Positions 6,574 to 37,159 of a stretch of DNA of 38,511 nucleotides are shown piece by piece. The stretch is from Bacillota bacterium. GTDB taxonomy: Bacteria; Bacillota; Clostridia; Lachnospirales; Lachnospiraceae. Within the stretch, counting starts at the first letter, position 1. Each line of letters begins with the position of its first letter. Both the position numbers and the translations under genes were made by a program. Under the pieces are notes generated by a model. The model did no database searches. It was not told the DNA's origin and saw only the letters and a program-made list of their open reading frames with translations. Location of the stretch: positions 1 through 38,511 of the forward strand of contig JAMPHT010000031.1 in the NCBI GenBank assembly GCA_023663285.1, read 5' to 3'.

Positions 6574-6587
6574 TGTAAAAACCCATT

Positions 6588-6600
6588 AAGAATGTCAAAA
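6588..6600 (+). promoter_or_regulatory. Left-end transposase site L1
   Basis: AAGAATGTCAAAA lies 15-27 bases from the left terminus; its core AATGTCAAA is at exactly the same distance as in the right end. Read inward, both ends share TGTAA plus this core. Binding by the MuA-like protein is inferred. Confidence 0.7.
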
Positions 6601-6623
6601 AAGACAAAAAGTGAGAAAAGGTG

Positions 6624-6668
6624 AAAAAAGCCGAGAAATCCCGCAAAATCAAAGGACTCGGCTTTTTT
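6624..6668. terminator. Bidirectional terminator at the prophage left end
   Basis: AAAAAAGCCGAG (6624-6635) pairs with CTCGGCTTTTTT (6657-6668). Because A-run and T-run flank both sides it can terminate transcription in either direction. It would stop read-through from the broken Sel1 gene and end the leftward repressor transcript. Confidence 0.8.
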
Positions 6669-6679
6669 TGTGTGCAAAA

Positions 6680-6695
6680 TTTGACATTCTTGGTG
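6680..6695 (-). promoter_or_regulatory. Left-end transposase site L2 (inverted)
   Basis: TTTGACATTCTTGGTG is an exact 16-base match to the site at 37112-37127. It lies 107-122 bases from the left terminus, in the opposite orientation to L1. Mu also has internal left-end sites of differing orientation. Confidence 0.65.
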
Positions 6696-6849
6696 TCTGA
6701 AAAATCAGGCTGTTAAAAAGGGGTTAAAACGAGGTTCTGCCGGGATATTTAAAAGGCTTCAACTGATTTCAACTCTAAAATGCTGTATTTTAGGCGGTTT
6801 TGAAAGATAGTTAAACTTTTGAAAAAAGTTGTTAAAATGAGAACGTGAA

Positions 6850-7015
6850 ATATTGCGGAACAAAAGAACGATCAAAGCACAAACAGTTCCGCAATACAAA
6901 TGCCCGTAAATCAAGGGCTCTATACATTTTGCAAAATATTGCGGAACTAAAAAGTATAAATAAGATAATTGCAAAACTTCCTTTATTAATGTGCGCTGAA
7001 ATAGTTCCGCAATAT
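6850..7015. repeat. Four-copy alternating repeat ATATTGCGGAAC
   Basis: Copies lie at 6850-6861 (+), 6886-6896 (-, one base shorter), 6936-6947 (+) and 7004-7015 (-). Copies 3 and 4 share a 17-base block including AAAA before and TA after the core. The start-to-start distances are 36, 50 and 68. The array lies downstream of the repressor gene and inside the left end. It could be a protein-binding array or could form RNA hairpins in the repressor 3' UTR. It does not match the AATGTCAAA end sites. Confidence 0.8.
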
Positions 7016-7117
7016 TTTCTGATTACAGATAAATCTGTACTAGCATTAAAAAACAAAGCCTTTTATGGCTTATTCTGGTACAGTTAAAAAAAGTTGAAGA
7101 GAATTTGAACACATTTG

Positions 7118-7447
7118 TTATTTGGCAGATATACGATCTAGTTCTTCATAAATAATAGTATGTACTCGATGTTGTCCACGACTATCTAATGAACTATATG
7201 TTCGCAGTAATTCAAGCTGTCCAGCAGTGAGATTGCTTTCATAGCCAAATAGGAGATAATCTGCGCTAATTGCGAAAATTTCGCACATCCTGATGAGCTG
7301 TTCTAAAGTGGGGTTTGATTTGTGATTCTTCCAATCAGTCATGGGACTTTTCTTTAATCCGAGCATATCACCCAGCTGTGTACCATTTATTCCTAGTTTT
7401 TCAGTTTGTTCAACAATTCTGTTGTAAATGTCATTCAAAATTTTCAC
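7118..7447 (-). CDS. cI-like phage repressor, XRE-family HTH protein, 106-109 aa
   Basis: This is the only leftward gene of the prophage. Residues about 10-70 form an XRE helix-turn-helix (GINGTQLGDMLGLKKSPMTD with the recognition helix SPMTDWKNHK), followed by a typical ISADYLLFG segment and a short helical tail. There is no C-terminal peptidase domain, so it is a minimal repressor. The GTG at 7447 sits immediately after AAGGA; the in-frame TTG at 7438 has better spacing, so the true start may be TTG and the length 106 aa. It diverges from the early operon across overlapping promoters and palindromic operators, and should maintain lysogeny and autoregulate (inference from layout). Confidence 0.88.
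   Translation of the reverse strand: MKILNDIYNRIVEQTEKLGINGTQLGDMLGLKKSPMTDWKNHKSNPTLEQLIRMCEIFAISADYLLFGYESNLTAGQLELLRTYSSLDSRGQHRVHTIIYEELDRISAK
7271..7285. promoter_or_regulatory. Operator-like palindrome inside the repressor gene
   Basis: TGCGAAAATTTCGCA is a 15-base palindrome identical to the one in the early promoter (7490-7504), 219 bp away, and lies within repressor codons for CEIFAI. It may be an intragenic auxiliary operator. Confidence 0.6.
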
Positions 7448-7459
7448 TTCCTTTCAAAA

Positions 7460-7476: not shown

Positions 7477-7505
7477 GATATATTGACAATGCGAAAATTT
7501 CGCAA
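7477..7505 (-). promoter_or_regulatory. Leftward repressor promoter (candidate)
   Basis: On the minus strand TTGCGA (7505-7500) and TATATC (7482-7477) are 17 bases apart, each 4 of 6 to consensus. The promoter overlaps the rightward early promoter, so both cannot be occupied at once. Confidence 0.45.
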
Positions 7506-7511
7506 TATAAT
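7483..7511 (+). promoter_or_regulatory. Rightward early promoter, perfect consensus
   Basis: TTGACA (7483-7488) and TATAAT (7506-7511) are both perfect sigma-A hexamers with a 17-base spacer. The spacer contains the palindrome TGCGAAAATTTCGCA (7490-7504), so bound repressor would block polymerase. Confidence 0.9.
7490..7504. promoter_or_regulatory. Primary operator in the early promoter spacer
   Basis: TGCGAAA-A-TTTCGCA is a perfect dyad about a central A, placed exactly between the -35 and -10 boxes of the early promoter. It is the best candidate binding site for the XRE repressor at 7118-7447. Confidence 0.8.
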
Positions 7512-7933: not shown

Positions 7934-8725
7934 ATGGCACGTACAAAGATGATACCACCGGAGGGCCTGTTAAGCGATTTAGAGTATACAAGCGTAATCG
8001 TAAGCTATTCAAACGGGATAGATAGTACAGGGGCGCTTTACTGGGCGGTAAAAAACTTTCCTAAGGAAAAGATATACCTTCTCTACTGCGATACAGGGTG
8101 TGAGTACCCGGAAAATGTGCGGTTATTTTACAAGGTGGCAGGATTTATGGGAGTCAAGCCGGTTTTCTTATCAGATGCAAGGGGCTTTTTAGGGTTGTTA
8201 CTGAATGAACGGCTTAAATTCCCGGATATGAAAAACCGCTGGTGTACTGCATACCTGAAAACGGCGGTAACTGATAAATGGATCCGGCAGCACAGGCAGC
8301 AGTTAGGCGCAAAGTGCTTATTTCTGTCTGGAGAACGCAGAGACGAAAGCGCAGGAAGAGCAAAGCTGCCGGAACTGGAATATCACAGCACAACGCTTAA
8401 GACAAAGCGGGTAGCAGACTTTACGTGCCACTGGTACAGACCTTGCTTGGACTATGAAAAGGGAAAGATGTTCGAGCAGGGCAAAGAACTTAAGTTAGAG
8501 CCGCATCCATGTTATGAGTATGTAGGCAGATGTAGCTGTATGTTCTGTATGTTCATGCCGGAGCGCCACGCCATAGAAAATATGAAAAGGTATCCGAAAA
8601 TGGCAGCAGAGTATGTGCAGGCAGAAATGAAGATACAGCATACATGGAAAAACGGGAAGAGCCTGCAAAGCATTTTCAATGAGTGTATGGACATAGACGA
8701 CGTGGATGAAGCGGTACAGAAGTAA
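7934..8725 (+). CDS. PAPS-reductase/DndC-like PP-loop protein, 263 aa
   Basis: An ATP pyrophosphatase-type fold: PP-loop SNGIDST at residues 26-32, YCDTGCEYPE after strand 2, RWCTAYLK (102-109), GERRDESAGR (133-142), and a C-terminal cysteine group with C193, C200, C202 and C205, spaced like an Fe-S or zinc site. The RWCT...LK and GxRRxES motifs are shared by phage phosphoadenosine-phosphosulfate reductase-like proteins and DndC-type sulfur-transfer enzymes. True sulfate reduction is unlikely in a prophage early operon; a role in nucleic-acid modification is more plausible but unproven. It starts 5 bp after the preceding stop with GGTAAGAAAG upstream. It is cargo-like: Mu itself has no counterpart in this position. 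Confidence 0.82.
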   Translation: MARTKMIPPEGLLSDLEYTSVIVSYSNGIDSTGALYWAVKNFPKEKIYLLYCDTGCEYPENVRLFYKVAGFMGVKPVFLSDARGFLGLLLNERLKFPDMKNRWCTAYLKTAVTDKWIRQHRQQLGAKCLFLSGERRDESAGRAKLPELEYHSTTLKTKRVADFTCHWYRPCLDYEKGKMFEQGKELKLEPHPCYEYVGRCSCMFCMFMPERHAIENMKRYPKMAAEYVQAEMKIQHTWKNGKSLQSIFNECMDIDDVDEAVQK

Positions 8726-8752: not shown

Positions 8753-8962
8753 GTGGATTTAGAGAGAATTGATAGGGCTATTGATAAGATATCAAGTCAA
8801 ATTGATTACCTTCCAAACATTGGTAATTATACTGCATTAGCAGAATTAGGGAAGGCTCTGGCAGCTCTGTTGATTGCCAAAGTATTGTATGAATCAAAAG
8901 ACAAAAACAGAATATTTGAAGTTGAGAGTCAGAAAGGAGGAGCGGATGAGGCGGAAGAATAG
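8753..8962 (+). CDS. Hypothetical small helical protein, 69 aa
   Basis: GTG 8753 lies 6 bases after AAGGAG; an in-frame GTG at 8735 overlaps that site. The product is helical (ERIDRAIDKISSQIDYLP, then an Ala/Leu-rich helix ELGKALAALLIAKVLYESK) with an acidic end. The hydrophobic stretch is amphipathic rather than a clear membrane segment. It overlaps the start of the following HTH gene, indicating co-translation. Not recognised. Confidence 0.6.
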   Translation: MDLERIDRAIDKISSQIDYLPNIGNYTALAELGKALAALLIAKVLYESKDKNRIFEVESQKGGADEAEE

Positions 8963-9146
8963 TTACACCGAGTTCGGGCAGTGGCTTAGGATCGAACTGA
9001 TCAAGCGCAACATCACGGCCAAGGAACTGGCAGAACTGGCGGGGATCGACCATAGGGTGGTGTCAGACGTGATGATCGGGAGGAACAAGAGCCACCAGCA
9101 GGAACTGAAGCAGGCCCTGCAGCAGTACGATGAGAGGCCGGCCTGA
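8946..9146 (+). CDS. Ner-like XRE HTH regulator, 66 aa
   Basis: ATG 8946 follows AAAGGAGGAGCGG. The protein is essentially one helix-turn-helix: FGQWLRIELIKRNITAKELA, then ELAGIDHRVVSDVMIGRNKS. It lies directly upstream of the transposase, the position of ner in Mu, where Ner shuts down early transcription. By size (Mu Ner is 75 aa) and position a Ner-like role is likely, but the assignment is by context; simple XRE proteins are common in phages. Confidence 0.72.
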   Translation: MRRKNSYTEFGQWLRIELIKRNITAKELAELAGIDHRVVSDVMIGRNKSHQQELKQALQQYDERPA

Positions 9147-9256: not shown

Positions 9257-11203
9257 TTGGAACAAATCACAGTGGAGGAGTATTCCAGCCTGAAAGGCTG
9301 TACGGAACGATATGTCAGAATGCAGATTGCTGATGGAAAGTTAAGGGCAACCGAGCGCTTCGGAGCCGGAGGCAAAAAGGGGATCAGTTACCTCATAGAC
9401 CTGGCAGACTGTGATCCGGCGATCATTAAGAAGTATAACCGGATACATAAGATAAAGCTGGAGAAGCCGGGACCGGTGAAGCCGCATCCGGTCCCAGATA
9501 ATTCGGAGGAACTGACGGATGAAGAGCGTCAGGAGATCGCCTTCTGGAAGCGGACGATAGCGGAATGGGATGACTACCGTGGATCCGCTTCCGGGAATAA
9601 AGCGGAGAGCGATGAGCGGTTTGTCCGGTACCTGGAGACAACTTATCCGGACAGGAGATTTTCGGTGCGGATGCTCTACAGGAAGAAAAAGGCCCTGAAG
9701 GAGCTTGGCGAGTGCGCCTTGGCAGACGGCAGAGGCAAGCATGAGAGCCACAATAAGGCGGTACCGGGGCCGGTCTTTGACATCTTTGAGTATTATTACC
9801 TGGATGAGAGCAAGCTGTCCGTGTGCGAATGTATCCGGCTGACGCAGCTGCAGCTGGAAAAGGAGGGGCAGATAGAACATCTTCCGCTTGCCGGAGAGAG
9901 CGCCTTTATCAGAGAGATAAGGCGGAGCATCCCGATCCCTGTATTGAAATACTTCCGACTGGGTGAAAAGGCGTTCAAGGATGAATGTGCGCCTTATATC
10001 AAGCGTACATACGGAGATCTGCATTCCAATGATATCTGGGTCTGCGACAACCATACCTTCGACATTTTTGTCAATGATGGGGAACACCGGAGGCCCATCC
10101 GGGTATACCTTACCGCATTTCTGGATGTCAGGAGCCGGAAGATGATGGGCTGGTATGTGACAGACGCGCCCTGCTCTGACGCGACGCTCCAGGCGCTGCG
10201 GCGGGGCATCGAGAAGTACGGGATCCCGAAGCGGATACTTTCGGACAATGGCCGGGAGTTCCTGACACATGACATTGGCGGCCGCGGCTTCCGCAAGGAC
10301 GGCAGGAAGGAGGATGAGCACCGGATCCCGACGATCCTTGACAATCTGCAGATCGAGTTCAGAACGGCGCTGGTAAGGAATGCCAGGGCAAAGATCATTG
10401 AGAGGGCGTTCAGGGACGTGAAGGACTGCTTCTCCAAGCTGTTTGACGGTTATACCGGCGGGACCATAGCGGAGAGGCCGGAACGGCTGAAGAAACTGGC
10501 AAAGTCGGCCTCAAACTTTACGCCTTACGCCGATTTCCTCAGCTATGTGGACACATACATAGAGGGCTGGTTCAATCATCAGGAGCATTCCGGCGTCGGC
10601 ATGGGGCATAAGACCAGGAACCAGGTCTATGCAGAGCAGCTGATAGAGGTGAGGCGGGCATCACAGGAGGATCTGAACCTGATGATGCTGCGGAACACCC
10701 GGATGCAGACGGTAAGGCGGGATGGTGTGGTGCTGAGGCTTTATGGGACGGAGATCACATTCTGGAGCAATGAGCTGCTGTATGACCACATTGGCGAGAA
10801 GGTCTACTTCCGCTATGATCCTGATGATTTGTCGGAGGTCAGGGTCTATGACGAAAGGGACCGGTTCCTGTGTACGGCACAGCAGCACGCTGCATTGAGT
10901 TATTATGCGGACAAGGAAGCTGTGGCGGAGCAGATGAAGGAGCAGCGGCAGTTTGAGAAGTTTGTGGCTGCTTATAAGAAGAACAAGGACATCCAGGCGG
11001 AGGACAAGCTGGCGCTGGTCCTGGCTGAAGCGGAGCGGAACATTGCCGCAGGCGAGAAGCTTGACCCGAAGGTCATCACCCTGATCCGGATTGCAGATGG
11101 AGAGACCGGGGAGCAGGAATATCTGGAAATGGCAGCCGGTGATGCCGGGCCGATCGACTGGACCCTGGCGCTGGAACGGCTGGAAGCAATGAAACGATCA
11201 TGA
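9257..11203 (+). CDS. Mu-type DDE transposase (MuA family), 648 aa
   Basis: Catalyses end cleavage and strand transfer for integration and replicative transposition. The N-terminus (TVEEYSSLKGCTERYVRMQI) is a winged-helix DNA-binding region as in Mu transposases. The RNase H-like core has D264 (WVCDNHTFDIFV), D330 (ILSDNGREFL) and E382 (AKIIERAFRDVKD), at spacing close to MuA (D269, D336, E392). The C-terminal beta-barrel domain reads LRLYGTEITFWSNE to KVYFRYDPDDLSEVRVY. The tail (about 560-648) is the region that in MuA contacts MuB. The start is TTG 9257 after AAAAAGGTGGTGGGAC; no better in-frame ATG exists upstream. Its substrates are the TGTAA ends of this element. Confidence 0.95.
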   Translation: MEQITVEEYSSLKGCTERYVRMQIADGKLRATERFGAGGKKGISYLIDLADCDPAIIKKYNRIHKIKLEKPGPVKPHPVPDNSEELTDEERQEIAFWKRTIAEWDDYRGSASGNKAESDERFVRYLETTYPDRRFSVRMLYRKKKALKELGECALADGRGKHESHNKAVPGPVFDIFEYYYLDESKLSVCECIRLTQLQLEKEGQIEHLPLAGESAFIREIRRSIPIPVLKYFRLGEKAFKDECAPYIKRTYGDLHSNDIWVCDNHTFDIFVNDGEHRRPIRVYLTAFLDVRSRKMMGWYVTDAPCSDATLQALRRGIEKYGIPKRILSDNGREFLTHDIGGRGFRKDGRKEDEHRIPTILDNLQIEFRTALVRNARAKIIERAFRDVKDCFSKLFDGYTGGTIAERPERLKKLAKSASNFTPYADFLSYVDTYIEGWFNHQEHSGVGMGHKTRNQVYAEQLIEVRRASQEDLNLMMLRNTRMQTVRRDGVVLRLYGTEITFWSNELLYDHIGEKVYFRYDPDDLSEVRVYDERDRFLCTAQQHAALSYYADKEAVAEQMKEQRQFEKFVAAYKKNKDIQAEDKLALVLAEAERNIAAGEKLDPKVITLIRIADGETGEQEYLEMAAGDAGPIDWTLALERLEAMKRS

Positions 11204-11219: not shown

Positions 11220-12155
11220 ATGGAAGCAACGGTAATGACGCAGGACATGATGCAGAGTATGACGATGGAAGAGGCCATCACCTGGATCAAGGAATATATC
11301 CAGTCCACAGGAAAGAAGCAGGCTGTGGTGGCACAGGAGCTGGGGATATCTGGCGGGGGGCTGTCCAGTTTCCTGTCTGGCAGCTATAAGACGCCCCACA
11401 CCATCATCCCGAAGGTACAAAACCTGAAAGAGATCAATCAGGGCAAGAAGGTGGTCCTGACGGATCCGCCCTTTGTGGAGACCACAGTCTCCCGGATGGT
11501 AGAGAACGCTATTAAGTACAGCCACTTAAGGGGAAAGATATCTGTTGTATACGGGGATGCCGGGATCGGTAAGACCCAGGCGTTCCTGCATTACTTGTCA
11601 GTCAATGAGCTGGCTATTGGCATCACGATCTCGCCCACATATGCATCCATTACCGGAGTGAACGAGCTGCTGGCGGAGCAGTTGGGGGTCAGGGAGAGGG
11701 TGGCAAGGAAGATCACACGGGAGATCGTGGCGAAGCTGAAGGGATCCGGCAGAGTCATCATCATCGACGAGGCCCAGCATCTCACGGTCAGGGCGCTGAA
11801 CCATATCAGGTGCCTCGCAGATGAGGCGGAGATCGGCATCTGCCTCATCGGGAATGAGGAGGTCTATAGCAAGCTGAAGGGTTCCGGCAAAGCGGATTTC
11901 GCACAGTTGTTTTCCAGGATCGGGATGCGGGAGCCGGTGGGGGTTAATACCATCACCAGGGAGGATGTGCAGCGTGTGTTCCAGGCAGCGGAGCTTCAGA
12001 AGGATGCGGTCGATATCCTTTACCAGATATGCCACACCAACTACGGACTGCGGGGCGCGGTGAATGTGTTCACGAACACGGCAGCAGTATTCCCGGATGA
12101 CATCAGCGCCGGGACCATAGCCCGGATGATGCGGGAGATGAACATAGGGAGGTAG
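11220..12155 (+). CDS. MuB-like transposition target-selection ATPase, 311 aa
   Basis: AAA+ ATPase that in Mu binds target DNA, activates the transposase and gives target immunity. Residues ~20-70 form an HTH (KKQAVVAQELGISGGGLSSF), as in MuB. The ATPase has Walker A GDAGIGKT (112-119) and Walker B IIIDEAQ (180-186), with the conserved HLTVRALN stretch after it. ATG 11220 follows AAGGAGGAAAACGAG and comes 17 bp after the transposase stop. Length matches MuB (312 aa). Confidence 0.93.
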   Translation: MEATVMTQDMMQSMTMEEAITWIKEYIQSTGKKQAVVAQELGISGGGLSSFLSGSYKTPHTIIPKVQNLKEINQGKKVVLTDPPFVETTVSRMVENAIKYSHLRGKISVVYGDAGIGKTQAFLHYLSVNELAIGITISPTYASITGVNELLAEQLGVRERVARKITREIVAKLKGSGRVIIIDEAQHLTVRALNHIRCLADEAEIGICLIGNEEVYSKLKGSGKADFAQLFSRIGMREPVGVNTITREDVQRVFQAAELQKDAVDILYQICHTNYGLRGAVNVFTNTAAVFPDDISAGTIARMMREMNIGR

Positions 12156-13573: not shown

Positions 13574-13683
13574 CAATGTAGATCTATTGTGGGGCGGCCT
13601 GCCCCACCTTAATGCAGCCAGAGCCGGTCCGAAGCCCGGAAGATGCAGACGGAGGAAACCAAAAAGGCGAAAGGAGAGCGTAT

Positions 13684-14175
13684 ATGAGGAAAAGAGTAAC
13701 AGACCAGGTACTGCAGTCATGGGATGACGTGAACGAGGCATTGAAGAGCATCGGCAGGGCGGACAGTGCCATTGCAGCCATTGAGGCGGGGATGAATGAG
13801 GAGATCGTGAGGATCAAGACGGAGGCAAAGACCCAGACCAAAGCCCACGAGGAGACCAAGAAGCTGCAGGAGATGATGATACAGCAGTATGTGTCAGCCC
13901 ATAAGTCGGAGCTGAAGGGGAAGAGCCACAAGTTGGCCCATGGGACCGTGGGGTTCCGCCTTTCCACGAAGCTGGTCCTGCCCAAGGAGATCAAGCCCAT
14001 CATCGAGGCACTGAAAAGAAACGGCATGATGGACTGCCTGAACCAGTCGGTGACGGTAAATAAGGATGTCCTTAAGACCTACGCCGAGGAGCAGATCATA
14101 GAGGTGGGCGGCTCCCTGAAGAAAGAGGATACGTTCTGGTACGAAGTGGACAGGGACTCTGTCCAGGATAAATGA
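13684..14175 (+). CDS. gam: Gam-like host-nuclease inhibitor, 163 aa
   Basis: Mu Gam coats linear DNA ends and protects them from host exonuclease during transposition. This protein has the Gam layout: a long N-terminal helical stretch (SAIAAIEAGMNEEIVRIKTE, TKAHEETKKLQEMMI), then the short beta/helix part KLAHGTVGFRLSTKLVLPK, then NQSVTVNKDVLKTYAEEQI, and an FWYEVD ending. Length is close to Mu Gam (174 aa). ATG 13684 follows GGCGAAAGGAGAGCGTAT. Placed downstream of the A and B genes as in Mu. Confidence 0.85.
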   Translation: MRKRVTDQVLQSWDDVNEALKSIGRADSAIAAIEAGMNEEIVRIKTEAKTQTKAHEETKKLQEMMIQQYVSAHKSELKGKSHKLAHGTVGFRLSTKLVLPKEIKPIIEALKRNGMMDCLNQSVTVNKDVLKTYAEEQIIEVGGSLKKEDTFWYEVDRDSVQDK

Positions 14176-14188: not shown

Positions 14189-15241
14189 ATGGCACAGACG
14201 ATCATAGCCCTGGATGCAGGGCACGGCATGGGAACGGCAGGCAAGCGGTGCTTAAAAAGTCTGGATCCAAGCGAAACGAGGGAATGGTGGCTGAATGACC
14301 GCATAGCGGACCGTGTACAGGAGCTGCTGTCAACTTATGACTGCACGGTGCTCAGGGTGGATGACACAACAGGGGCGAAAGACATCAGCCTGTCCGCCCG
14401 CGTAAAGGCGGCAAACAGTGCGGGGGCAGCTATTTACATATCTATCCATCACAATGCCGGACTGAATGGCAAGAGAGGCGGCGGGACGACAGTGTTCTAC
14501 TGCTCCGGCATAGTTGCGCGCCTGGCTCAGGCGAAGCGGCTGTATAATGCGGTAGTAGGGCAGACCGGGCTGCAGGGCAACAGGAGCCAGCTGGTAGTAA
14601 ACCGCGGGTTCTATGTGATAAAGAACACCCGGATGCCTGCTTTTCTCATCGAAAACGGCTTTATGGACTCCCCTGATGACGTCCCGGTGATCCTGTCTGC
14701 AGTACACGCTGAAAAAACAGCCCAAGGCATACTGACGTTCCTGAAAACGGAGCTGTTCCTTCAGGAGAAGAGGGTCAGCGTGGATCCGCCGCAGACGGGA
14801 CAGGCGCAGCTGCCACAGTCGGCAGCTGTGCAGGAGGCAGTCCCGACAGCCGGGTCTTGCGCTGCAAAGCCGCAGGAGACCCAGACCATGCCCTATATTG
14901 TTGTAAGCAAGGGTGACACTCTCTCCGGTATTGCAAAGAGGTTCGGCCTGACTTGGCAGGAACTGGCGGCGGCAAACGAGATCAAGGATCCTGACAACAT
15001 CATTACAGGACAGAAGATATATATCCCGACTATCAAAAAGGAAGAGATCCTTTGTTATCCGGCTTACGTCGGTAAGCAGACTACCCTTTCAGCTGCCCTG
15101 ACATCTCTTGGCATCAACAGCAGCTATGTTTTTCGGAAAGAGATCGCGGCAGCCAATGACATCACCGGATATGTCGGCACAGCAAGCCAGAACACAATGA
15201 TGTATAACCTGCTCGCAGCAGGGCTGCTCAAGCGGGCATAA
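14189..15241 (+). CDS. Endolysin: N-acetylmuramoyl-L-alanine amidase with LysM, 350 aa
   Basis: An Ami_3-type zinc amidase (about 1-190): H12 in LDAGHGMG, H87/H88 in ISIHHN, and E155 in LIENGFMD as expected zinc and catalytic residues. A linker (190-232) rich in Gln, Pro and Ala follows, then a LysM domain (about 234-280: YIVVSKGDTLSGIAKRFGL to GQKIYIP), and a C-terminal 60-residue domain matching the lysin fragment at 3..185. No signal peptide, so export needs a holin. ATG 14189 follows GAGAGGAGGCAGCAT. Its place in the early operon, between gam and gemA and before the middle-region activator, is unusual for a lysis gene. Confidence 0.92.
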   Translation: MAQTIIALDAGHGMGTAGKRCLKSLDPSETREWWLNDRIADRVQELLSTYDCTVLRVDDTTGAKDISLSARVKAANSAGAAIYISIHHNAGLNGKRGGGTTVFYCSGIVARLAQAKRLYNAVVGQTGLQGNRSQLVVNRGFYVIKNTRMPAFLIENGFMDSPDDVPVILSAVHAEKTAQGILTFLKTELFLQEKRVSVDPPQTGQAQLPQSAAVQEAVPTAGSCAAKPQETQTMPYIVVSKGDTLSGIAKRFGLTWQELAAANEIKDPDNIITGQKIYIPTIKKEEILCYPAYVGKQTTLSAALTSLGINSSYVFRKEIAAANDITGYVGTASQNTMMYNLLAAGLLKRA

Positions 15242-16146: not shown

Positions 16147-16186
16147 AATGGACAGTGCAGGGACAGATTGCATTGTCCATTTTTTT
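16147..16186 (+). terminator. Strong terminator closing the early operon
   Basis: AATGGACAGTGCA (16147-16159) pairs with TGCATTGTCCATT (16169-16181), with one G-T wobble, followed by a seven-T run ending at 16186. It separates the early/middle block from the late genes and is followed by AGTACACA. Confidence 0.88.
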
Positions 16187-16194: not shown

Positions 16195-16213
16195 CAACAG
16201 GGAGGGAATGTTT

Positions 16214-29229: not shown

Positions 29230-31971
29230 ATGGATCTGTTTACATTAGTTGGAAAGATCGTCTTAGAGTCGGATGAATTTAATAATAAGGTAGATTCCGC
29301 TATGTCCAAGGTAGACTCCCTGGCAAACGGATTCCAGAAAGCAGGGGATAAGATCGCCCAGATAGGCAGCGGCATGACAAAGACAGTCACCTTGCCTCTT
29401 GCTGCCGTAGGTGCAGCATCCGTCAGTACAGCGGCTACCTTTGAGGACGCAATGTTAAAGGTGCAGTCCCTGTCAGGCGCCACAAGGGAAGAGTATGGTC
29501 AGCTGACAGCAGCGGCGAAGGAATACGGTTCTACTACTGCCTGGACAGCTAAGGACGTGGCGGATGCAATGGGCTATATGGCCCTTGCGGGTTTTGATAC
29601 AAAGGAGATCCTTGCCTCCGTCGAAGGTATGCTGTCATTGGCATCTGCGTCGGGAGAAGATCTTGCCACGGTAACGGACATACTGACGGATTCCATGACA
29701 GCCTTTGGGGACGGGGCGGAGGATGCGGCCCGGTATGCGGATGTGCTGGCAACTACCCAGGCAAAGTCCAATACTACGGTTGGTCAGCTGGGAGAAGCTT
29801 TTAAGTATGTAGCACCACTGGCCGGTTCATACCGTTATCAGCTTGAGGATGTGGCGGCAGCTCTGGGGATGATGGCAAACGCAGGAGTCAAGGGCTCTAT
29901 GGCGGGCACAGCCCTTTCCAGTATCATCACAAGGCTGGGAACCAATACCAGCGGGGCGCGGGATGCCATTGAGGAGCTGGGCGTTGAATTCTATAACTCG
30001 GACGGCACGGCACGGAGCCTGAGTGATGTATTAAAGGATCTGTGTGATGCAACGGCAACGATGGACACAGAACAGAAGGCGGCGCTGGCAAGTACGGTGG
30101 CAGGGCAGGAAGCCCAGAAGGGTCTGCTTGCTGTCTTGAATCAGGGATCCGGCGCTTATGAGGATCTGGAAGGCAAGATCAAAAGCTGCAGCGGGACGGC
30201 ATCTGATATGGCGCAGAACATGGAATCCGGACTGGGTGGTTCTCTGCGAAGCTTAAAGTCAGCCCTGGAAGGTGTGTCCATCACCATAGGTGAAAAGCTT
30301 GCGCCGTATATTGAAAAAGCTGCCCAGAAGATCAAAGAGTTTACACAGTGGTTCCAGAACCTAGATGCTGGTACCCAGGAAACGATCGTCAAGATGGGCT
30401 TGCTGTTGGCTTCTATAGGGCCGGTACTCACGATCCTGGGGAAAGGTGCGTCAGCGATTGGAAATATCATATCAGTGGGTTCTAAACTGGTGGGCGGTAT
30501 CAAGACAGTGGTCTCGGTGGGCTCCAAGCTGACGGGCGGTATCAAGACAGTGGTCTCGGTAGGCTCTAAGTTGGTCAGCGGGGCAAAGCTGGTGATAGGC
30601 GCTTTCACAAGCATCAATCCAGTGGTGCTGGCGGTAGTGGGAGCGATCGGGGCAGTTGTGGGCATTGGGGTGGCCCTTTATAAGAATTGGGATACCATCA
30701 AGGAGAAAGCCCATGAGCTGGGAGAAAAGATCTCCCAGAAATGGGAGGACATCAAGCAGTGGACCGGCGACCTGAAGGACAGCGTAGTCGAGAAATGGAA
30801 CAACATCAAGGAAGGCATGAGCAATGCGGTGGAATCAGCCAAAGAAGCTGTTTCCGGAAAGTTCAAGGAACTGAAGGAGAATGCTTCCAGCCGGATCCAG
30901 GAGCTGAAAGAGAATGTTTCGTCTAAGTTCAAGGAACTGAAAGAGAATGCCTCTAACCGGATCCAGGAGTTGAAAGAGAATGCAGCGTCCAAGTTCCGGG
31001 AGCTGAAGGAGAATGCCTCCAGTCGGATCCAGGAACTGAAAGAGAATGCCGTGTCCAAGTTCCGGGAGATGAAAGAGAATACTTCCGCCAGGGTCACGGA
31101 GATGCGGGAGAATATAGTCACAAATTTCAAAAACCTGAAGGAGCAGGCCAGTGAGAAGATAGCCGACCTGAAAGAGCGCTGGGGGCAGCATTTTGAGGAG
31201 GCGCGCGGAAAGATCGTGTCAGAGGTCACGGAACTGAAAGAAAAGGCCACAGGCAAGATAACCGAATTCAAAGGCAATGCAGTTCAGAAGTTCAAGGAGT
31301 TAAAGGATTCAGCCGTCTCCAGTCTGGCGAATGTTGCGAAAAATGGTGTGGAAGGCTTCCAGAACATCAGGGACAAGGGGAGCGCAGCCATTGAAAAGCT
31401 GAAAGATGTGGCGGCAAATAAGTTTGCCGAGATGGGCAATACGGTCAGGGAGAAGTTCAGCTCAGTCGGAGAAAAGATCACAGGAACTTTCTCAAAGTGT
31501 CAGGAGAAGGTCAAGGGCATTGTAGACAGTATCAAAAGCTTCTTTAAATTTGAATGGAAGCTGCCGAAGATCAAGCTGCCTCACTTTAAGATAACAGGAG
31601 AATTCTCACTTAATCCGCCTTCTATCCCGCATTTTGGAGTAGAGTGGTATGCAAAGGGCGGCGTCATGACTTCGCCCACAGCCTTTGGCATAAATCCGTT
31701 CACCGGGAATATGATGGTAGGCGGTGAAGCCGGAGCTGAGGCGATAGCACCGATCACAGTACTGCAGGATTATATCCGCCAGGCGGTGGGAGCACAAAAT
31801 CAGGAGATCGTCAGTGTTTTGACATCTGTTTTAGCAGTGTTGAACAGATATTTACCACAGTGTACGGAGAAACAGCTGGTACTTGACACCGGAGCTACGG
31901 TAGGGGCGCTGGCCTCAGGCATGAACACAAGGCTGGGGGAAATCTCCCGGCAGGATGAGAGGATCAGATGA
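29230..31971 (+). CDS. Tail tape measure protein, 913 aa
   Basis: Sets tail length. The N-terminal ~350 residues are the TP901-type domain (MTKTVTLPLAAVGAASVSTA, SLSGATREEYGQL, YVAPLAGSYRYQLEDVAAAL, NAGVKGSMAGTALSSIITRL). A hydrophobic section includes three copies of a 14-residue unit (VSVGSKLVGGIKTV-like, about 30474-30600) and a membrane-type stretch PVVLAVVGAIGAVVGIGVAL. From about 30859 to 31320 runs an 11-residue repeat (KFKELKENASS / RIQELKENVSS). The end contains KGGVMTSPTAFGINP. ATG 29230 follows TAGAGGTATTT. At about 1.5 angstrom per residue the tail would be near 135 nm (inference). Confidence 0.93.
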   Translation: MDLFTLVGKIVLESDEFNNKVDSAMSKVDSLANGFQKAGDKIAQIGSGMTKTVTLPLAAVGAASVSTAATFEDAMLKVQSLSGATREEYGQLTAAAKEYGSTTAWTAKDVADAMGYMALAGFDTKEILASVEGMLSLASASGEDLATVTDILTDSMTAFGDGAEDAARYADVLATTQAKSNTTVGQLGEAFKYVAPLAGSYRYQLEDVAAALGMMANAGVKGSMAGTALSSIITRLGTNTSGARDAIEELGVEFYNSDGTARSLSDVLKDLCDATATMDTEQKAALASTVAGQEAQKGLLAVLNQGSGAYEDLEGKIKSCSGTASDMAQNMESGLGGSLRSLKSALEGVSITIGEKLAPYIEKAAQKIKEFTQWFQNLDAGTQETIVKMGLLLASIGPVLTILGKGASAIGNIISVGSKLVGGIKTVVSVGSKLTGGIKTVVSVGSKLVSGAKLVIGAFTSINPVVLAVVGAIGAVVGIGVALYKNWDTIKEKAHELGEKISQKWEDIKQWTGDLKDSVVEKWNNIKEGMSNAVESAKEAVSGKFKELKENASSRIQELKENVSSKFKELKENASNRIQELKENAASKFRELKENASSRIQELKENAVSKFREMKENTSARVTEMRENIVTNFKNLKEQASEKIADLKERWGQHFEEARGKIVSEVTELKEKATGKITEFKGNAVQKFKELKDSAVSSLANVAKNGVEGFQNIRDKGSAAIEKLKDVAANKFAEMGNTVREKFSSVGEKITGTFSKCQEKVKGIVDSIKSFFKFEWKLPKIKLPHFKITGEFSLNPPSIPHFGVEWYAKGGVMTSPTAFGINPFTGNMMVGGEAGAEAIAPITVLQDYIRQAVGAQNQEIVSVLTSVLAVLNRYLPQCTEKQLVLDTGATVGALASGMNTRLGEISRQDERIR
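30859..31320 (+). repeat. Tandem 33-bp (11-residue) repeats in the tape measure gene
   Basis: Units such as AAGTTCAAGGAACTGAAG and CGGATCCAGGAGCTGAAAG alternate, encoding hendecad repeats of the form K-F-K-E-L-K-E-N-A-S-S. The first eight or so units are nearly identical at DNA level; later ones diverge. Copy number here could change tail length in steps of 11 residues. Confidence 0.75.
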
Positions 31972-32594
31972 TGTATGGAGTATGGTTTGATAATGAGCAT
32001 ATGGGCGGTTCAACGGACCTGATCATGAATTATGCGCGTGTGGGCACACCCGCTGCCAAGGTCAAGGAGATAGAGGTACCCGGTATGGATGGGATCCTGG
32101 ACATAACGGAAAGCCTTGGCGAAGTCAAATATGATTCCAGACAGATCAGCTTTAAGTTCACGTCCACCAGCGGTGCCCGAATAAACGAACTGATCAATAC
32201 CCTGCACGGCCAACGGAAAAAGATCATCCTGGACAGAGACGAAGCTTTTTACTACATGGGACGCATTGAGGCCAGGGATCCGGTCATCAACGGAAATCTT
32301 ATCAGCCTGGAACTGGATGCCAGGTGTGAACCTTATAAGTATAAGATCCACATGACAAGGCATAAGGAGGATGTGGCCGCCGCCAGCAATATAGTGCTGC
32401 TGAACGAGAGGATGCAGACGATCCCGCGGATCACACTGACGGCACAGATGAAAATATCCTTTGAGGGCAGGGCCTATGTCCTGCCTGCAGGGGAATATAC
32501 CATTGCGGAGATCGTTTTAAAGCAGGGATATAACAGGTTCCGGGTGGAAGGCACCGGCACGATCCTATTCCAGTATCAGGAAGGAGCACTATGA
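31968..32594 (+). CDS. Distal tail protein (Dit), 208 aa
   Basis: Forms the hub ring at the tail tip. ATG 31968 overlaps the tape measure stop (ATGA). The N-terminus MMYGVWFDNEHMGGSTDL, then KEIEVPGMDGILDITESLGE, and RQISFKFTSTSGARINELIN are typical Dit features (EVPGRDG-like motif). The C-terminal beta-rich half ends in YNRFRVEGTGTILFQYQEGA. It overlaps the Tal gene by 4 bp. Confidence 0.87.
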   Translation: MMYGVWFDNEHMGGSTDLIMNYARVGTPAAKVKEIEVPGMDGILDITESLGEVKYDSRQISFKFTSTSGARINELINTLHGQRKKIILDRDEAFYYMGRIEARDPVINGNLISLELDARCEPYKYKIHMTRHKEDVAAASNIVLLNERMQTIPRITLTAQMKISFEGRAYVLPAGEYTIAEIVLKQGYNRFRVEGTGTILFQYQEGAL

Positions 32595-34288
32595 TGTACA
32601 GCATTTATGCAGATGACACGCTGATATACAGTCCTTCGGTCAAAGAGTTTTGCTTATATGACATTGTCCTGAATGTGGAGGATAACAGTGCCGGCACACT
32701 GCAGTTCAATATGCTGTCAGAACACCCGTCTTTCCTGATGCTGAAAAAGCTGGCGACGCTCATCACCGTGAAAAATGGTGATGTTGTTCTTTGGAAAGGC
32801 AGGATCATTTCGGATGACAGGGACATCAACAATGTAAAAAAGATCCAGTGTGAAGGACAGCTGGCATTCCTGAACGACTCCATTTTTCCGGCGTTTGATT
32901 TTTCGGGATCCCCGGAGCAGCTGTTCAGGGATATCATACAGAATCATAACAGCCAGGTCAGCCCCAGGCAGCGCTTCCGGATTGGAAACGTGACGGTCAA
33001 GGATAATAACGACTATATTGTAAGAAGCAGCATCAATGATGCCAGGACATGGGCGGCGCTGAAGGATAAGTGTTTTCAGAGTACCCTTGGGGGTCACCTA
33101 CGGATCCGGTATGAAGCGGATGGGGACTATATCGACTGGCTGGAGGATTACACGGAGGTGTCCGGCCAGTCCATCACCTTCGGAAGAAATATCATCGACC
33201 TGCTGGTGAACACCTCTGCCACGGAAACGTTTACAGCGATCCGACCGAAAGGAGCATTAGCTGACGAAGCCGGCACGGAAAGGATCGACATAAAGAGTGT
33301 GAATGACGGAAAGGACTATATCATTGACGAAGAGAAGGCAGCAGAGTACGGTATCATCTTTGCAAGTCCGGAGGAGAGCATCTGGGAGGATGTCACGCTG
33401 CCGCAGAACCTGCTGCAGAAAGCTAGGGTGAAGCTGACAGCCGGGACCACCCTCAAAAAAACAATAGAGGTGAGAGCGGTGGATCTCAACCTTACGGATG
33501 CGCAGATCGAGGCACTAAAGGTCTGCACCTATGTCCAGGTAGTATCGCCCCTTCACGGGATCGCGGAATATTACCTGTTGAGCAAGGCCGAGCTGCATCT
33601 GGATGCGCCGGAGCATACACGGTATACGCTGGGGGCTGTCAAGGCGACGTTTACGGACGCAAACAAGACCCAACTTGTAAGCGTGATGCAGACAGTAGGT
33701 GCATCGATCCCTTCTGCAGTCAGCCAGCTGAAGAATGATGAAGGGTTTGTGACGGAGCAGACAGTCATAGAAGTTGTTGGAAAGACAACTGTTTCACCGA
33801 CTATAGAAGTATCGGAGGAGGCGGAGGACTTCTATAAGCTTAAGATCACGTCCGTATCGGGGGAAATAGAGACGCCAAATTTGATGGGCCCGCCTGGGGA
33901 TCCCGGAGCGGATGGTAAAGATGGCGCTGACGGCAGGGATGGGATCGATGGGCAGAATGGCGCGCCAGGGGAATCTGCTTATGCTGTTGCTGTAAAAAAC
34001 GGCTTTGCAGGAAGCGAGGAGGAATGGCTTGCGTCTTTGAAGGGCGAGGCTCCCGTCATCGGAGCAAATGGTAACTGGTTCATTGGCGGGGAGGACACAG
34101 GGTTCCCCAGCAGGGGGGAACGAGGTGAAAAGGGAGATCCCGGAGCAGCGGGAGGGACCGGTGGAGGTTTTTCCGGAATGTATGCCTTTGAAATAAGGGA
34201 CGGGTGCCTGTGGATCGTGTCCGATTCCGAGACTGTACCTGACAATTTCTATATCAACAGTGATTGCTGTCTATGCTACGTGTTTTAG
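32591..34288 (+). CDS. Tail-tip protein (Tal) with collagen-like repeats, 565 aa
   Basis: The first ~380 residues match the siphovirus endopeptidase-tail/Tal baseplate hub: MMYSIYADDTLIYSPSVKEF, SGSPEQLFRDIIQNHNSQVS, GGHLRIRYEADGDYIDWLED, NIIDLLVNTSATETFTAIRP. A C-terminal extension then carries Gly-X-Y collagen-like tracts (GPPGDPGADGKDGADGRDG, GERGEKGDPGAAGGTGGG) around a phage-tail segment SAYAVAVKNGFAGSEEEWLA. The collagen part probably forms a trimeric stalk. No catalytic wall-hydrolase motif is visible, so it is called structural. Confidence 0.87.
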   Translation: MMYSIYADDTLIYSPSVKEFCLYDIVLNVEDNSAGTLQFNMLSEHPSFLMLKKLATLITVKNGDVVLWKGRIISDDRDINNVKKIQCEGQLAFLNDSIFPAFDFSGSPEQLFRDIIQNHNSQVSPRQRFRIGNVTVKDNNDYIVRSSINDARTWAALKDKCFQSTLGGHLRIRYEADGDYIDWLEDYTEVSGQSITFGRNIIDLLVNTSATETFTAIRPKGALADEAGTERIDIKSVNDGKDYIIDEEKAAEYGIIFASPEESIWEDVTLPQNLLQKARVKLTAGTTLKKTIEVRAVDLNLTDAQIEALKVCTYVQVVSPLHGIAEYYLLSKAELHLDAPEHTRYTLGAVKATFTDANKTQLVSVMQTVGASIPSAVSQLKNDEGFVTEQTVIEVVGKTTVSPTIEVSEEAEDFYKLKITSVSGEIETPNLMGPPGDPGADGKDGADGRDGIDGQNGAPGESAYAVAVKNGFAGSEEEWLASLKGEAPVIGANGNWFIGGEDTGFPSRGERGEKGDPGAAGGTGGGFSGMYAFEIRDGCLWIVSDSETVPDNFYINSDCCLCYVF

Positions 34289-34334: not shown

Positions 34335-34916
34335 ATGGGGAGATCAGAAGTCAATTTGGGGAAGGTTGGATTGAGCGAGGCAGAGATAGAAGAGATGAAG
34401 CAGGACATCACAAAGCAGCTGGGTGGCGTCCGCCTGGGTTATAATGAGGAAGGAAAGCCGGGCTATTATACGACGGATGAGACAGGTGCAGATACAGTGA
34501 TCCCTTTTAGCTCCAACATGGGAGGCGGTAAGCTGTATTTTGATACATTAATTATGACGGCGCTTTCGTTCAATGGCAGTACGATGTATAGCCACAGTAC
34601 ATCTATAAAGCTGGATTCCACGCAATATAAAAAGATGACTATGTCAGGCGGAAGTCTAATAGCACGGGCATTCAACGCTACCTACAAAGTCAAAACAAAA
34701 GTTGAGATCTCAGGCTATAAAGAAGGACAGACAACGCCAGAAAGTCTGTTCAGCAAGGAAACGGGACAGACAAACTCTACTACTACGGGGGTCAGCGTAT
34801 ATATTGAAGAGGCGGTGATAAATATCGAGGATTACTCAGAAGTACTAATAGAGTTTAAAGTATCTGCAAGCTTTGGAAATGGGTATGCAACGTTGAATGA
34901 TCTTACATTGGAATAG
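34335..34916 (+). CDS. Baseplate / receptor-binding-region protein, 193 aa
   Basis: ATG 34335 is chosen as the start of the open frame; the ribosome site (AAAGGCGGGTGAAA) is weak. The first 60 residues (GLSEAEIEEMKQDITKQLGG, then GYNEEGKPGYYTTDETG) resemble linkers in Firmicutes phage tail proteins; the rest is beta-rich (YKVKTKVEISGYKEGQT, VYIEEAVINIEDYSEVLIEF), possibly a carbohydrate-binding jelly-roll. Position after Tal supports a host-contact role. Family not recognised. Confidence 0.65.
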   Translation: MGRSEVNLGKVGLSEAEIEEMKQDITKQLGGVRLGYNEEGKPGYYTTDETGADTVIPFSSNMGGGKLYFDTLIMTALSFNGSTMYSHSTSIKLDSTQYKKMTMSGGSLIARAFNATYKVKTKVEISGYKEGQTTPESLFSKETGQTNSTTTGVSVYIEEAVINIEDYSEVLIEFKVSASFGNGYATLNDLTLE

Positions 34917-34948
34917 CGCTACAATATGATGGAAAGGAACATGAGTAT

Positions 34949-35749
34949 ATGGCACAGATCAATATTTTATTGGAGAAACAGCTGTTGACGATCCAGAACC
35001 GGGAAGTGATCTCTTCCGGAGATATGAATTATGATTCCTGCAAATTTACATTTGATGAGGAATGGACGGACTTCATAAAGACGGCAGTATTTTATCAGGA
35101 TAAGACAAATGTACAGTATGCTGTGCTTGATAGCAAGGATATGTGTATGATACCGGCTGCTGCTATGGCGCGGGCAGGCAGGATGTATCTGGGGGTGTTT
35201 GGCATCAAGGATACGGCAGTGGTCACGTCTACAGTAGAAACCGTAGATATTCGAGAAGGAGCCATATCCGGAGGAAATGTCTCCACAGAGCCAACGGATG
35301 ATGTATTTCTTGCCATCATAGCACAGTACCAGCGGATCGCAAGCGCGATCACACAGTATGAGAGCACTGCGCATCAGTTTAATGCCCTGATGGCTGAGCA
35401 GAACGGAATACTGGAAAAATTGAATGCTTTTGACGTAACAGAACTCATGGGACGGCTAAATCTGATCGAAGATAGGATAGCAAACTATACCAATCTTGCA
35501 AAAGAGATCCAGAACCGTGAAATCGTGATAAGGAATGTGCCAGTAAAATTTGTTAATAAGGTGTGCAGGGTGGAACATGAAGCTTTTACGGAAGCTTCTC
35601 TATGTGATGTGTACTTTGATGAGTATTCTTATGAGATAGCGGCAAAGGCGCTCATCCTGCCGATGTCTTATCAGGGCTACATGGAATTGACAAGTTCCAT
35701 TGACATAAAAGAGGAGCTGACGGCGAATATTCTTGTAAGGAGGAATTGA
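34949..35749 (+). CDS. Upper baseplate-like (BppU-type) protein, 266 aa
   Basis: The N-terminus (NILLEKQLLTIQNREVISSG, SCKFTFDEEWTDFIKTAVFY) matches the baseplate N-terminal domain common in Firmicutes phage tails. A helical coiled-coil section (IIAQYQRIASAITQYESTAH, LMGRLNLIEDRIANYTNLAK) and a C-terminal beta part follow. It overlaps nothing and ends 2 bp before the next gene. ATG 34949 follows GGAAAGGAACATGAGTAT. Confidence 0.72.
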   Translation: MAQINILLEKQLLTIQNREVISSGDMNYDSCKFTFDEEWTDFIKTAVFYQDKTNVQYAVLDSKDMCMIPAAAMARAGRMYLGVFGIKDTAVVTSTVETVDIREGAISGGNVSTEPTDDVFLAIIAQYQRIASAITQYESTAHQFNALMAEQNGILEKLNAFDVTELMGRLNLIEDRIANYTNLAKEIQNREIVIRNVPVKFVNKVCRVEHEAFTEASLCDVYFDEYSYEIAAKALILPMSYQGYMELTSSIDIKEELTANILVRRN

Positions 35750-35751
35750 TA

Positions 35752-36960
35752 ATGCTGGGGAAAACAAATATTACTACACTTACAGAGGGCGCGGTGGTAA
35801 CGGAGATTGAAGATTTCAAGTGGGTCCGGATGCAGCCGGGGGTTTATGGAAATTTTGTAAAAGCTATATATGAAAACGGTTATTTGGCGGCAATCACAGC
35901 AGATGGTAAAGTGGTATATACCACGGACGGAGAAGCTTGGCAGGTTTCGGAATTGGAGTATGCGGACTGCAAACTGGAGGATATTGCATGGGATGGAAGC
36001 CGATTCCTTCTTGTGGGAAGTTATAAGGACACTATAGAAATGACTGATGGGACAAGCGGCGAATTTGAAATCGGGCTTCTTTTGACGACGGACAATTTTA
36101 CCTTGTATGACTATTTTAAAGCGGATACTAAAAAAATAATCTCGCAATATAATTATGAGTATTGCTCAAAATATTTAGCTGTTTATCCGTCGAATGGGAA
36201 ATGGGTAGTGCTTGCTCACGAAAAATATGCGGGGAATTCAACATCAATCCCCTCAAAAAGTATTGCAATGCTTGTGGGTGGGTCAGACAGCCAATTAGAA
36301 AGACAATCTTCCTATATAATTAGGTCAGACATTGGAACTATATGTATTGGAAAGAACTCACAAGGGATTTTGATTACAAATGCGTATGAATCTAAAGGAC
36401 GCATTTATCTGGTTGATGGAAATACCTTTAAAATACAGAATAAGAGTCTTTCTGGAACAGGGACGATACATCGATTGCCTGTTTTTGACTGTAAGGACGA
36501 GTTATATTATATGGGAATAGAAAGCACAGCTGGTTACAAACTCGCCAAGGTACTATTCTCTGGTGAAGAGATAATATTGAGTACGGGAATCGATTATAGA
36601 TTTATAGGTGGTGTATACTTTAACAAATGCCAGCTTTTTATTAATGAACGTGAGATGATGATTCTAAAAAAGGGTGAAAGCATTACGGATAAGACGCAGG
36701 AAGATCTAATTGAGATTGCCCCGGAGAACACCCTGACCTGTATCACAAAAGCATTTGGCCAGCTTTTTGTTTTTGGAAATCAGGGATTAATTTTAAAATC
36801 CAGTACAGAGGGTAGCAGCGAGGAGGCAATATTGATTCAGACTATATCTGCGAAAAAAGCGTTGCTGGAGGCAAACGCATATACAGAGCAGCGTTGTAAA
36901 TTGCTGGAATCCAAGATAGCAGCATTAGAGGCAGAGATAGCAGGAACTGAGGTAAAATGA
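35752..36960 (+). CDS. Tail fibre / receptor-binding candidate, 402 aa
   Basis: ATG 35752 follows AAGGAGGAATTGATA. The protein is beta-rich, with repeats reminiscent of a propeller (AAITADGKVVYTTDGEAWQV, DIAWDGSRFLLVGSYKD, FGQLFVFGNQGLILKSS), a pattern of WDG/TDG-type blades, and a C-terminal coiled coil (KALLEANAYTEQRCKLLESK). The DNA from about 36100 to 36950 is distinctly AT-rich compared with the other structural genes, which points to recent acquisition. It is the last gene of the phage, where host-range proteins usually lie; the receptor is unknown. Confidence 0.7.
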   Translation: MLGKTNITTLTEGAVVTEIEDFKWVRMQPGVYGNFVKAIYENGYLAAITADGKVVYTTDGEAWQVSELEYADCKLEDIAWDGSRFLLVGSYKDTIEMTDGTSGEFEIGLLLTTDNFTLYDYFKADTKKIISQYNYEYCSKYLAVYPSNGKWVVLAHEKYAGNSTSIPSKSIAMLVGGSDSQLERQSSYIIRSDIGTICIGKNSQGILITNAYESKGRIYLVDGNTFKIQNKSLSGTGTIHRLPVFDCKDELYYMGIESTAGYKLAKVLFSGEEIILSTGIDYRFIGGVYFNKCQLFINEREMMILKKGESITDKTQEDLIEIAPENTLTCITKAFGQLFVFGNQGLILKSSTEGSSEEAILIQTISAKKALLEANAYTEQRCKLLESKIAALEAEIAGTEVK

Positions 36961-36977
36961 AAAGGTGAAGAGGGAAA

Positions 36978-37028
36978 ATGTTATTCAAAGCTAAAAATTT
37001 TCATATAGATGGTTCAACTACGATTTAA
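36978..37028 (+). CDS. Possible 16-codon remnant at the right end
   Basis: ATG 36978 preceded by AGAGGGAAA opens a 16-codon frame (MLFKAKNFHIDGSTTI) ending at TAA 37026-37028. It follows the tail-fibre gene by 17 bp. It may be the start of a lost accessory gene, or chance. Confidence 0.25.
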   Translation: MLFKAKNFHIDGSTTI

Positions 37029-37111
37029 AATTTGTTAAAATAGTGCTTAAAGAGACTTTTCTGGAAATTTAAAGTGGGCGATTTCAAGCAAAATTGTAAC
37101 GTACAAAGAGT

Positions 37112-37127
37112 TTTGACATTCTTGGTG
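37112..37127 (-). promoter_or_regulatory. Right-end transposase site R2
   Basis: TTTGACATTCTTGGTG, read inward from the right end as CACCAAGAATGTCAAA, lies 33-48 bases from the terminus, exactly 22 bp (two helical turns) inside R1. It is a 16-base match to the left internal site at 6680-6695. Confidence 0.7.
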
Positions 37128-37132
37128 ATGAA

Positions 37133-37146
37133 ATTTGACATTTTTG
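37133..37146 (-). promoter_or_regulatory. Right-end transposase site R1
   Basis: Read inward, AAAAATGTCAAA occupies positions 15-26 from the right terminus, aligned base for base with AAGAATGTCAAA of L1. This symmetry fixes the element ends. Confidence 0.75.
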
Positions 37147-37159
37147 CTGCCTGCTTACA

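Follow-up and report, generated by a model that had tools for sequence, protein, structure and literature searches.

The locus considered here, contig JAMPHT010000031.1 of a Lachnospiraceae bacterium (assembly GCA_023663285.1), is referred to below, over its whole analysed length of 38,511 bases, as the window. It raises the question of whether a long block of phage genes lying within a host gene is a transposable prophage of the Mu kind, where exactly it ends, and how its ends compare with those of Mu-like phages already described. Our analysis confirmed that bases 6574–37159 form a transposable prophage of this kind, which interrupts a Sel1-repeat gene of the host. The prophage, its insertion site and its end features are the following:

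6574..37159, + strand, whole Mu-like prophage, 30,586 bp, early to late genes from left to right
6569..6573, left copy of the 5-bp target duplication CTGGT
37160..37164, right copy of the 5-bp target duplication CTGGT
6046..6573, + strand, 5′ part of the interrupted host Sel1 gene (PF08238)
37165..37815, + strand, 3′ part of the interrupted host Sel1 gene (PF08238)
6578..6599, + strand, L1, putative 22-bp transposase site with core AATGTCAAA at 6591–6599
6680..6701, − strand, L2, putative 22-bp transposase site, inverted with respect to L1, core at 6680–6688
37134..37155, − strand, R1, putative 22-bp transposase site
37112..37133, − strand, R2, putative 22-bp transposase site adjoining R1
6624..6668, 12-bp perfect stem AAAAAAGCCGAG/CTCGGCTTTTTT between L1 and L2

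Both junctions can be read in the window, with termini TGTAA from 6574 and TTACA up to 37159, the duplication CTGGT on either side and AATGTCAAA at 18–26 from both termini, and the base-exact prophage of 30,586 bp proposed by an earlier, sequence-only reading was thereby upheld. Joining the flanks in silico gives a single Sel1 protein of 392 residues, in which AEQG-type motifs (at 86, 122, 158, 194, 230 and so on) recur exactly every 36 residues, also over the joint at residue 176, so that the host frame is indeed restored on removal, as had been claimed. An empty Sel1 gene had also been predicted for related genomes. When the upstream host AAA gene and the Sel1 left flank were used as query against 138 genomes of the genus, 3 matched, own included, and in one congener (G004, AAA gene match 88%) the same locus holds the AAA gene followed by one unbroken Sel1 gene of 283 codons, the start of which (MEKLLK.LGI) matches the left portion of the interrupted gene, as its end (KLRELGE) does the right portion. 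The unbroken gene was therefore found, yet the predicted single CTGGT is not readable there at base level, as the number of Sel1 repeats differs. With the Sel1 left flank alone as DNA query, 13 of 61 genomes matched, those other than the own genome by short or repeat-region matches only. In the host flank at 1447–5936, an Hsp70-like gene, two AAA ATPase genes and then the Sel1 gene stand in a row.

Insertion sites of related prophages

Relatives of the transposase came from 138 genomes of the genus (matches in 7, counting the own genome), 397 genomes of the family (matches in 2, again counting the own genome), a genome collection (133 stretches, the best 80 of which were kept) and a viral collection (83 stretches, 78 loci). 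The left ends of three of them (L038, L039 and L041) begin at exactly the base at which the window prophage begins, and their flanks are different; the inner left boundary, for which the sequence-only reading had called for a comparison with relatives, is thus exactly the same in other prophages. Flanks differ among relatives, as with a Mu-like phage that inserts at many unrelated sites. A right-end pattern searched in six genomes matched in five, and in two of the six for the backward control. The TG...CA ends and 5-bp target duplication typical of Mu-like phages are found in the window and among its relatives: ten prophages, the window counted, have both ends located, and eight of these carry a matching duplication, each of a different sequence:

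window, CTGGT
L039, ACGGT
L041, ACTAT, ends on two contigs
L040, AAAAG
L056, ATTGG
L058, GAAGG, ends on two contigs, right end L221
L067, ACAAC
L083, ACAGG

For L040 and L056, the duplication had served to locate the left ends in the first place, and the later inverted-pair search described below gives the same bases without it. No left counterpart was located to the right ends L211 (for L100) and L217 (for L057). One Clostridia genome, A99_91_CP_DSS (G567), holds five right ends of a related phage (L217–L221), each on its own contig and with its own flank; four of the five are alike in the stretch compared.

These insertion sites bear on the reading that the element is an ordinary integrase-type prophage with Mu-like ends by chance, which could be suggested by its head and tail families, these being the ones of ordinary tailed phages. 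This reading is hardly credible, given that one inner end recurs at different sites, with 5-bp duplications in relatives, that Mu-type A and B proteins are present and that no integrase family was found among the scanned proteins.

Putative transposase sites and the left end

The core AATGTCAAA is found four times in the window, always within 115 bp of a phage end: directly at 18–26 and inverted at 107–115 from the left end, and directly at 18–26 and 40–48 from the right end. The count alone is modest (0.42 expected; four or more in 1 of 100 shuffles), and it is the placement of the copies rather than their number that is striking. The inverted L2 and R2 are two sites beyond those of the earlier reading, and both ends thus carry repeated putative transposase sites, a sequence pattern characteristic of Mu-like phages.

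An inverted-pair search upstream of the transposase covered 111 sequences (the window, Bacillus phage BalMu-1 and 109 of 158 transposase loci), with 23 hits, 21 of which are left ends by eye. In 20 of these 21, TGT, which was outside the search pattern, precedes the first core by exactly 17 bases, the remaining one (L060) having AGT. Since L129 and L130 are one phage, the inverted left pair is present in 20 distinct prophages, window included, and the other 88 sequences either lack a left end or have a different layout. Controls gave 1 hit for reversed sequence, 3 for downstream sequence and 5 for a direct second site; hits in L081 and L107 and a second hit in L124 were set aside as chance-like by eye. 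A separate scan, which required TG and allowed at most one mismatch in the second site, gave hits in 21 entries, of which 12 had the second site inverted at 102–107, against 0 of 111 reversed sequences and about one per shuffle set. In a transposase tree of 45 chosen rows, of which 23 carry no orientation label, the 20 inverted rows are split with support 100/99 from the only 2 direct rows (BalMu-1 and L067). The AGT of L060 belongs to a second Mu-like prophage in the metagenome-assembled genome (MAG) of Acetatifactor muris (L060 / L030 near 3280), the left terminus of which reads AGTAA where TGTAA was expected.

Could the inverted L2 instead serve regulation, or form one arm of a terminator hairpin, with the real second transposase site of the left end located elsewhere? 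L1 and L2 do flank a stem-loop in the subclade of the window, and the L sites are direct in Mu and BalMu-1. Nonetheless, the inverted pair is kept in relatives without a strong stem-loop, since a strong fold (z −2.6 or lower) was seen in 6 of 20 related L1–L2 spacers and is not clade-wide. Moreover, aligning 32 putative 22-bp sites from 8 phages showed CA at positions 7–8 in 31 of them, the L2 of all eight phages included and the L1 of L058 being the exception; this CA was not asked for by any search pattern, while the core AATGNCAA at 14–21 was partly built into the searches. Finally, the outer half of L2 resembles the R2 of its own phage above chance pairing, with 106 of 40320 permutations as good, a result that overstates the evidence because the eight phages are related. 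We therefore consider a non-transposase role of L2 rather unlikely, and keep to L2 as a putative transposase site.

As for the spacer itself, the stem at 6624–6668 is a possible two-way terminator, judging from its fold; it is absent from the listing of the consensus terminator scan because its loop exceeds 8 nt. The stem-loop alignment was out of register and was not used for pair counts. In the 80-bp L1–L2 spacer, AA steps recur at a period of about 9.6 bp (period scan from 5 to 20 bp over 20 related loci), with a mean power of 1.62 against 0.91, the largest of 200 shuffle sets, and periodicity within 9.3–10.7 bp reached p<0.05 in 11 of the 20 loci. Bending in its first form, a 10.5-bp phasing score, was rejected, with p<0.05 in 0 of 20 loci and no excess over shuffles. 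The AA periodicity is real against shuffles, without support for classical helical phasing. In Mu, HU bends the L1–L2 spacer, and we propose that the spacer might likewise shape the left end here. It is tentatively suggested, as a possibility short of probable, that this Clostridia branch of Mu-like phages builds a left complex unlike that of Mu, in which transposase would sit on L1 and an opposed L2 and the AA-periodic spacer would fold the arm so that it enters reversed. No inverted L2 in Firmicutes Mu-like phages was found in the portions of the open-access literature searched, subscription papers lying outside, which is weak evidence of absence.

Gene content and a proposed life cycle

The prophage holds 40 open frames covering 93% of its length, and their proteins were scanned with PHROGs and Pfam at a match cut-off of E 0.001. 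The genes and the left regulatory elements are the following:

7118..7447, − strand, helix-turn-helix (HTH) repressor-like regulator (phrog_8, phrog_4)
7483..7511, + strand, early promoter-like TTGACA-17-TATAAT, a 12/12 sigma-A-like match with an operator-like palindrome in its spacer
7934..8725, + strand, PAPS-reductase-like protein, DndC/SspD-like (phrog_424, PF01507, PADLOC)
8874..9146, + strand, Ner-like HTH regulator (position and phrog_1468)
9257..11203, + strand, transposase A, DDE, Mu-type (phrog_310; PF09299, PF00665, PF02914; 42% to BalMu-1)
11220..12155, + strand, transposition protein B, AAA+ ATPase (phrog_296; AAA_22, TniB)
13612..14175, + strand, Gam-like end-protection protein (phrog_491)
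14189..15241, + strand, endolysin (amidase_3 and LysM)
15284..15754, + strand, GemA (PF06252)
15754..16089, + strand, Mor/C-like late activator (PF08765, phrog_836)
16148..16705, + strand, holin-like protein (phrog_36209)
17830..18384, + strand, terminase small subunit (phrog_426)
19012..20565, + strand, terminase large subunit (phrog_30251)
20562..22022, + strand, portal (phrog_64)
21982..23463, + strand, minor head/head morphogenesis protein (phrog_595, phrog_115)
23752..24333, + strand, scaffold (phrog_194)
24358..25356, + strand, major capsid protein (phrog_212)
25768..27617, + strand, head and head-tail connector genes
27598..28338, + strand, major tail protein (phrog_885)
29230..31971, + strand, tape measure protein of 913 residues (phrog_1533)
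31968..34288, + strand, distal tail protein (Dit) and tail endopeptidase-like protein (phrog_33, phrog_3558; PF06605)
34335..36960, + strand, three distal genes, 63–91% identical to those of the A. muris phage

The reverse-strand repressor-like regulator is followed by the forward PAPS-like, Ner-like, A and B genes, small early genes, and then Gam, endolysin, GemA, Mor and the holin-like gene, after which come terminase, portal, head morphogenesis, scaffold, capsid, connectors, major tail, tape measure, Dit, endopeptidase-like and distal genes. A DDE transposase with a Mu-type C-terminal domain, an AAA+ B protein and the regulators Gam, GemA and Mor/C are all present, as is typical of Mu-like transposable phages (the proposed ‘Saltoviridae’). 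From their place, the three distal genes probably serve receptor binding. No scanned protein has a tail sheath as its best family, one tail protein showing a weak 50-residue sheath match (phrog_15433), and a reverse transcriptase was not found among the 40 proteins with PHROGs. The best-ranked phage-record matches of the large terminase infect Firmicutes (Clostridioides CD1801 at 46.5% and Geobacillus GBK2 at 44.4%); as no morphology is given for these records, the siphovirus-type reading comes from the presence of Dit and tape measure with no sheath. Judged by its gene families, the phage is a mosaic of Mu-type transposition and regulation genes with a predicted siphovirus-type head and tail. 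The PAPS-reductase-like gene at 7934–8725 has no match in the relatives from A. muris and bacterium 1XD21-13, nor in the loci of 19 relatives.

The phage of the A. muris MAG is co-linear with that of the window, with 34 of 40 proteins matched at 63–98% and alignments mostly near full length, the head morphogenesis protein being aligned over 303 of 493 residues. Unmatched are six proteins: the repressor, the next gene, the PAPS-like protein, 12916–13188, Mor and 23460–23663. Mor may be unmatched through the gap between the two contigs of the A. muris phage, and the window and A. muris phages appear to have different immunity. In the relative from bacterium 1XD21-13 (L230, L231), 15 of 40 proteins matched, all from the Ner-like gene to the large terminase, while nine further large frames that were scanned gave a capsid of phrog_10, versus phrog_212 in the window, and a tail without a sheath match. 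That a similar transposition module is joined in this relative to capsid and tail genes of another kind suggests an exchange of virion modules.

At the left, a palindrome, TGCGAAAATTTCGCA, lies in the spacer of the promoter at 7483–7511, with similar copies at 7457–7474 and 7268–7285, the latter inside the repressor gene. Overall, the promoter scan was not above shuffles (4 sites found, 6.0 expected), so the case rests on the 12/12 match and the palindromes; promoter, palindromes and repressor together look like an immunity switch. Between the left end and the repressor, at 6848–7018, four copies of TATTGCGGAAC occur in inverted pairs, with 17-nt perfect arms at 6933–6949 and 7002–7018, and no exact copy of TATTGCGGAAC was found in L038 or L039.

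Starting from the observed ends, duplication, site pattern, genes and insertion sites of relatives, and borrowing binding, replication route, regulation, packaging and activity from Mu, we would propose the following cycle. In the lysogen, the HTH repressor would silence the strong early promoter. Once repression is lifted, transposase A would act on the four 22-bp sites (L1, inverted L2, R1 and R2), pair the ends and nick at TG/CA, and the AAA+ protein B would select targets, the phage being copied into new sites with 5-bp duplications. Mor would then switch the late genes on, and phage DNA with flanking host sequence would be packed by the headful into a siphovirus-type particle.

Several observations weigh against the reading as a complete Mu-like phage with such a cycle. 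Only one copy was found in the own draft genome (90 contigs, 86% complete), the left 300 bp and the transposase giving one match each, and 10 of the 40 proteins have no PHROG or Pfam family at the cut-off used. In two of the ten prophages with both ends located, the left and right 5-bp flanks disagree:

A. muris L038/L192, AAAAT versus GCATC, ends on two contigs
L042/L213, CGAAT versus GGTGT, both ends on one contig of 31,746 bp, where the left flank measures only 24 bp

On the two A. muris contigs the phage portions are about 9.5 and 21 kb long, which adds up to roughly one phage length. It could be guessed that the unmatched flanks in A. muris and L042 reflect two or more insertions coexisting in the population sampled, and the L042/L213 contig may have been assembled from two or more of them. 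Furthermore, the right end of the matched pair L058/L221 is one of five candidates. When a strict right-end pattern was searched in 50 further genomes or records, 10 matched (backward control 1), 15 of the 50 being virus records and perhaps fragments; matches in G565, G574, G575, G588 and G595 and the C2 match of G567 looked like chance by eye. As the matches look real by eye in only 5 of the 50, the 18/40 layout is not established family-wide.

A defective Mu-like remnant, with intact ends and with movement or particle formation lost, would fit the single copy in a draft genome and the fact that phage activity is what we infer. The 40 open frames over 93% of the length, the presence of the core modules and the co-linearity with the A. 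muris phage, mostly in near-full-length alignments, speak against decay, and we hold such a remnant to be improbable. Of the complete working phage claimed earlier, the transposition, regulation, head and tail modules are indeed there as open frames; that it works can be called only probable, and ten of the 40 proteins match no family. With very high confidence, we regard the element as a temperate Mu-like phage that is complete and probably functional, in a host of Lachnospiraceae type.

Comparison with known Mu-like phages

Mu-like phages of Firmicutes had been called much less described than those of Proteobacteria. They are better known than this suggests, as BalMu-1, Mushu and phi13delta/Villandry have been described and the 133 genome and 83 viral stretches found here encode transposase relatives. 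Such phages are already established in Firmicutes, the work of Toussaint from 2013 being reportedly among the sources, and the window phage is a member of that kind.

Faecalibacterium phage Mushu is a Mu-like phage of a gut Firmicute, for which sequenced virion junctions, a 5-bp repeat and virion reads with varying stretches of host DNA are described (PMC5883640); it is classed there, in contrast, as a myovirus with a diversity-generating retroelement (DGR). C. clostridioforme phi13delta / Clostridium phage Villandry (ON453902) is described as combining the phrog_310 transposase, phrog_296 and the phrog_424 PAPS reductase in one prophage, with Mor and ner-like genes (PMC11318856). The Pseudomonas PaMx73/H70 group shares Mu-type transposition with long flexible tails, and PaMx73-type phages are reported to have R1 inverted with respect to R2 and R3 and direct L1–L3 (PMC4378225). 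A reversed end site is thus not without precedent, although the inverted site is R1 there and L2 in the window phage.

BalMu-1 (NC_030945) has the nearest annotated transposase among phage records (42%), a B protein at 45%, Gam, GemA and late activator in the same order and R sites at 18 and 40, with CA in its L1 and CT in its R1 and R2. It differs overall, with 6 of 40 window proteins matched, in its direct L sites at 18, 125 and 145 against the inverted L2 of the window, and in being annotated with tail sheath, PBSX-like tail proteins, reverse transcriptase and Avd; the combination of tail sheath and DGR was not found in the PHROGs scan of the 40 proteins.

Escherichia phage Mu resembles the window phage in having repressor, Ner-like gene and A at the left, R cores at 18 and 40 and a CA likewise placed in L1, R1 and R2, whereas its transposase is about 24% identical over part of the length and its L sites are direct, at 18, 123 and 163. 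Mu has a contractile tail and an invertible segment. The window phage does not fit Mu proper (genus Muvirus), its left sites not being all direct and its tail, with Dit and tape measure and no sheath as best family, being apparently of another type.

The end signature that emerges for the window clade consists of TGTNA, AATGNCAA at 18–26, an inverted copy about 105 bases in and right copies at 18 and 40, and could serve to excise Mu-like prophages of gut Clostridia to the exact base. Read from the end sequences, R1 and R2 cores stand at 18 and 40 in the window phage, Mu and BalMu-1 alike, which suggests that the right-end layout may have been kept between Mu, BalMu-1 and the window clade while the left end was rebuilt. 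A kept right end versus a rebuilt left end would be a natural test of the essential parts of the Mu complex.

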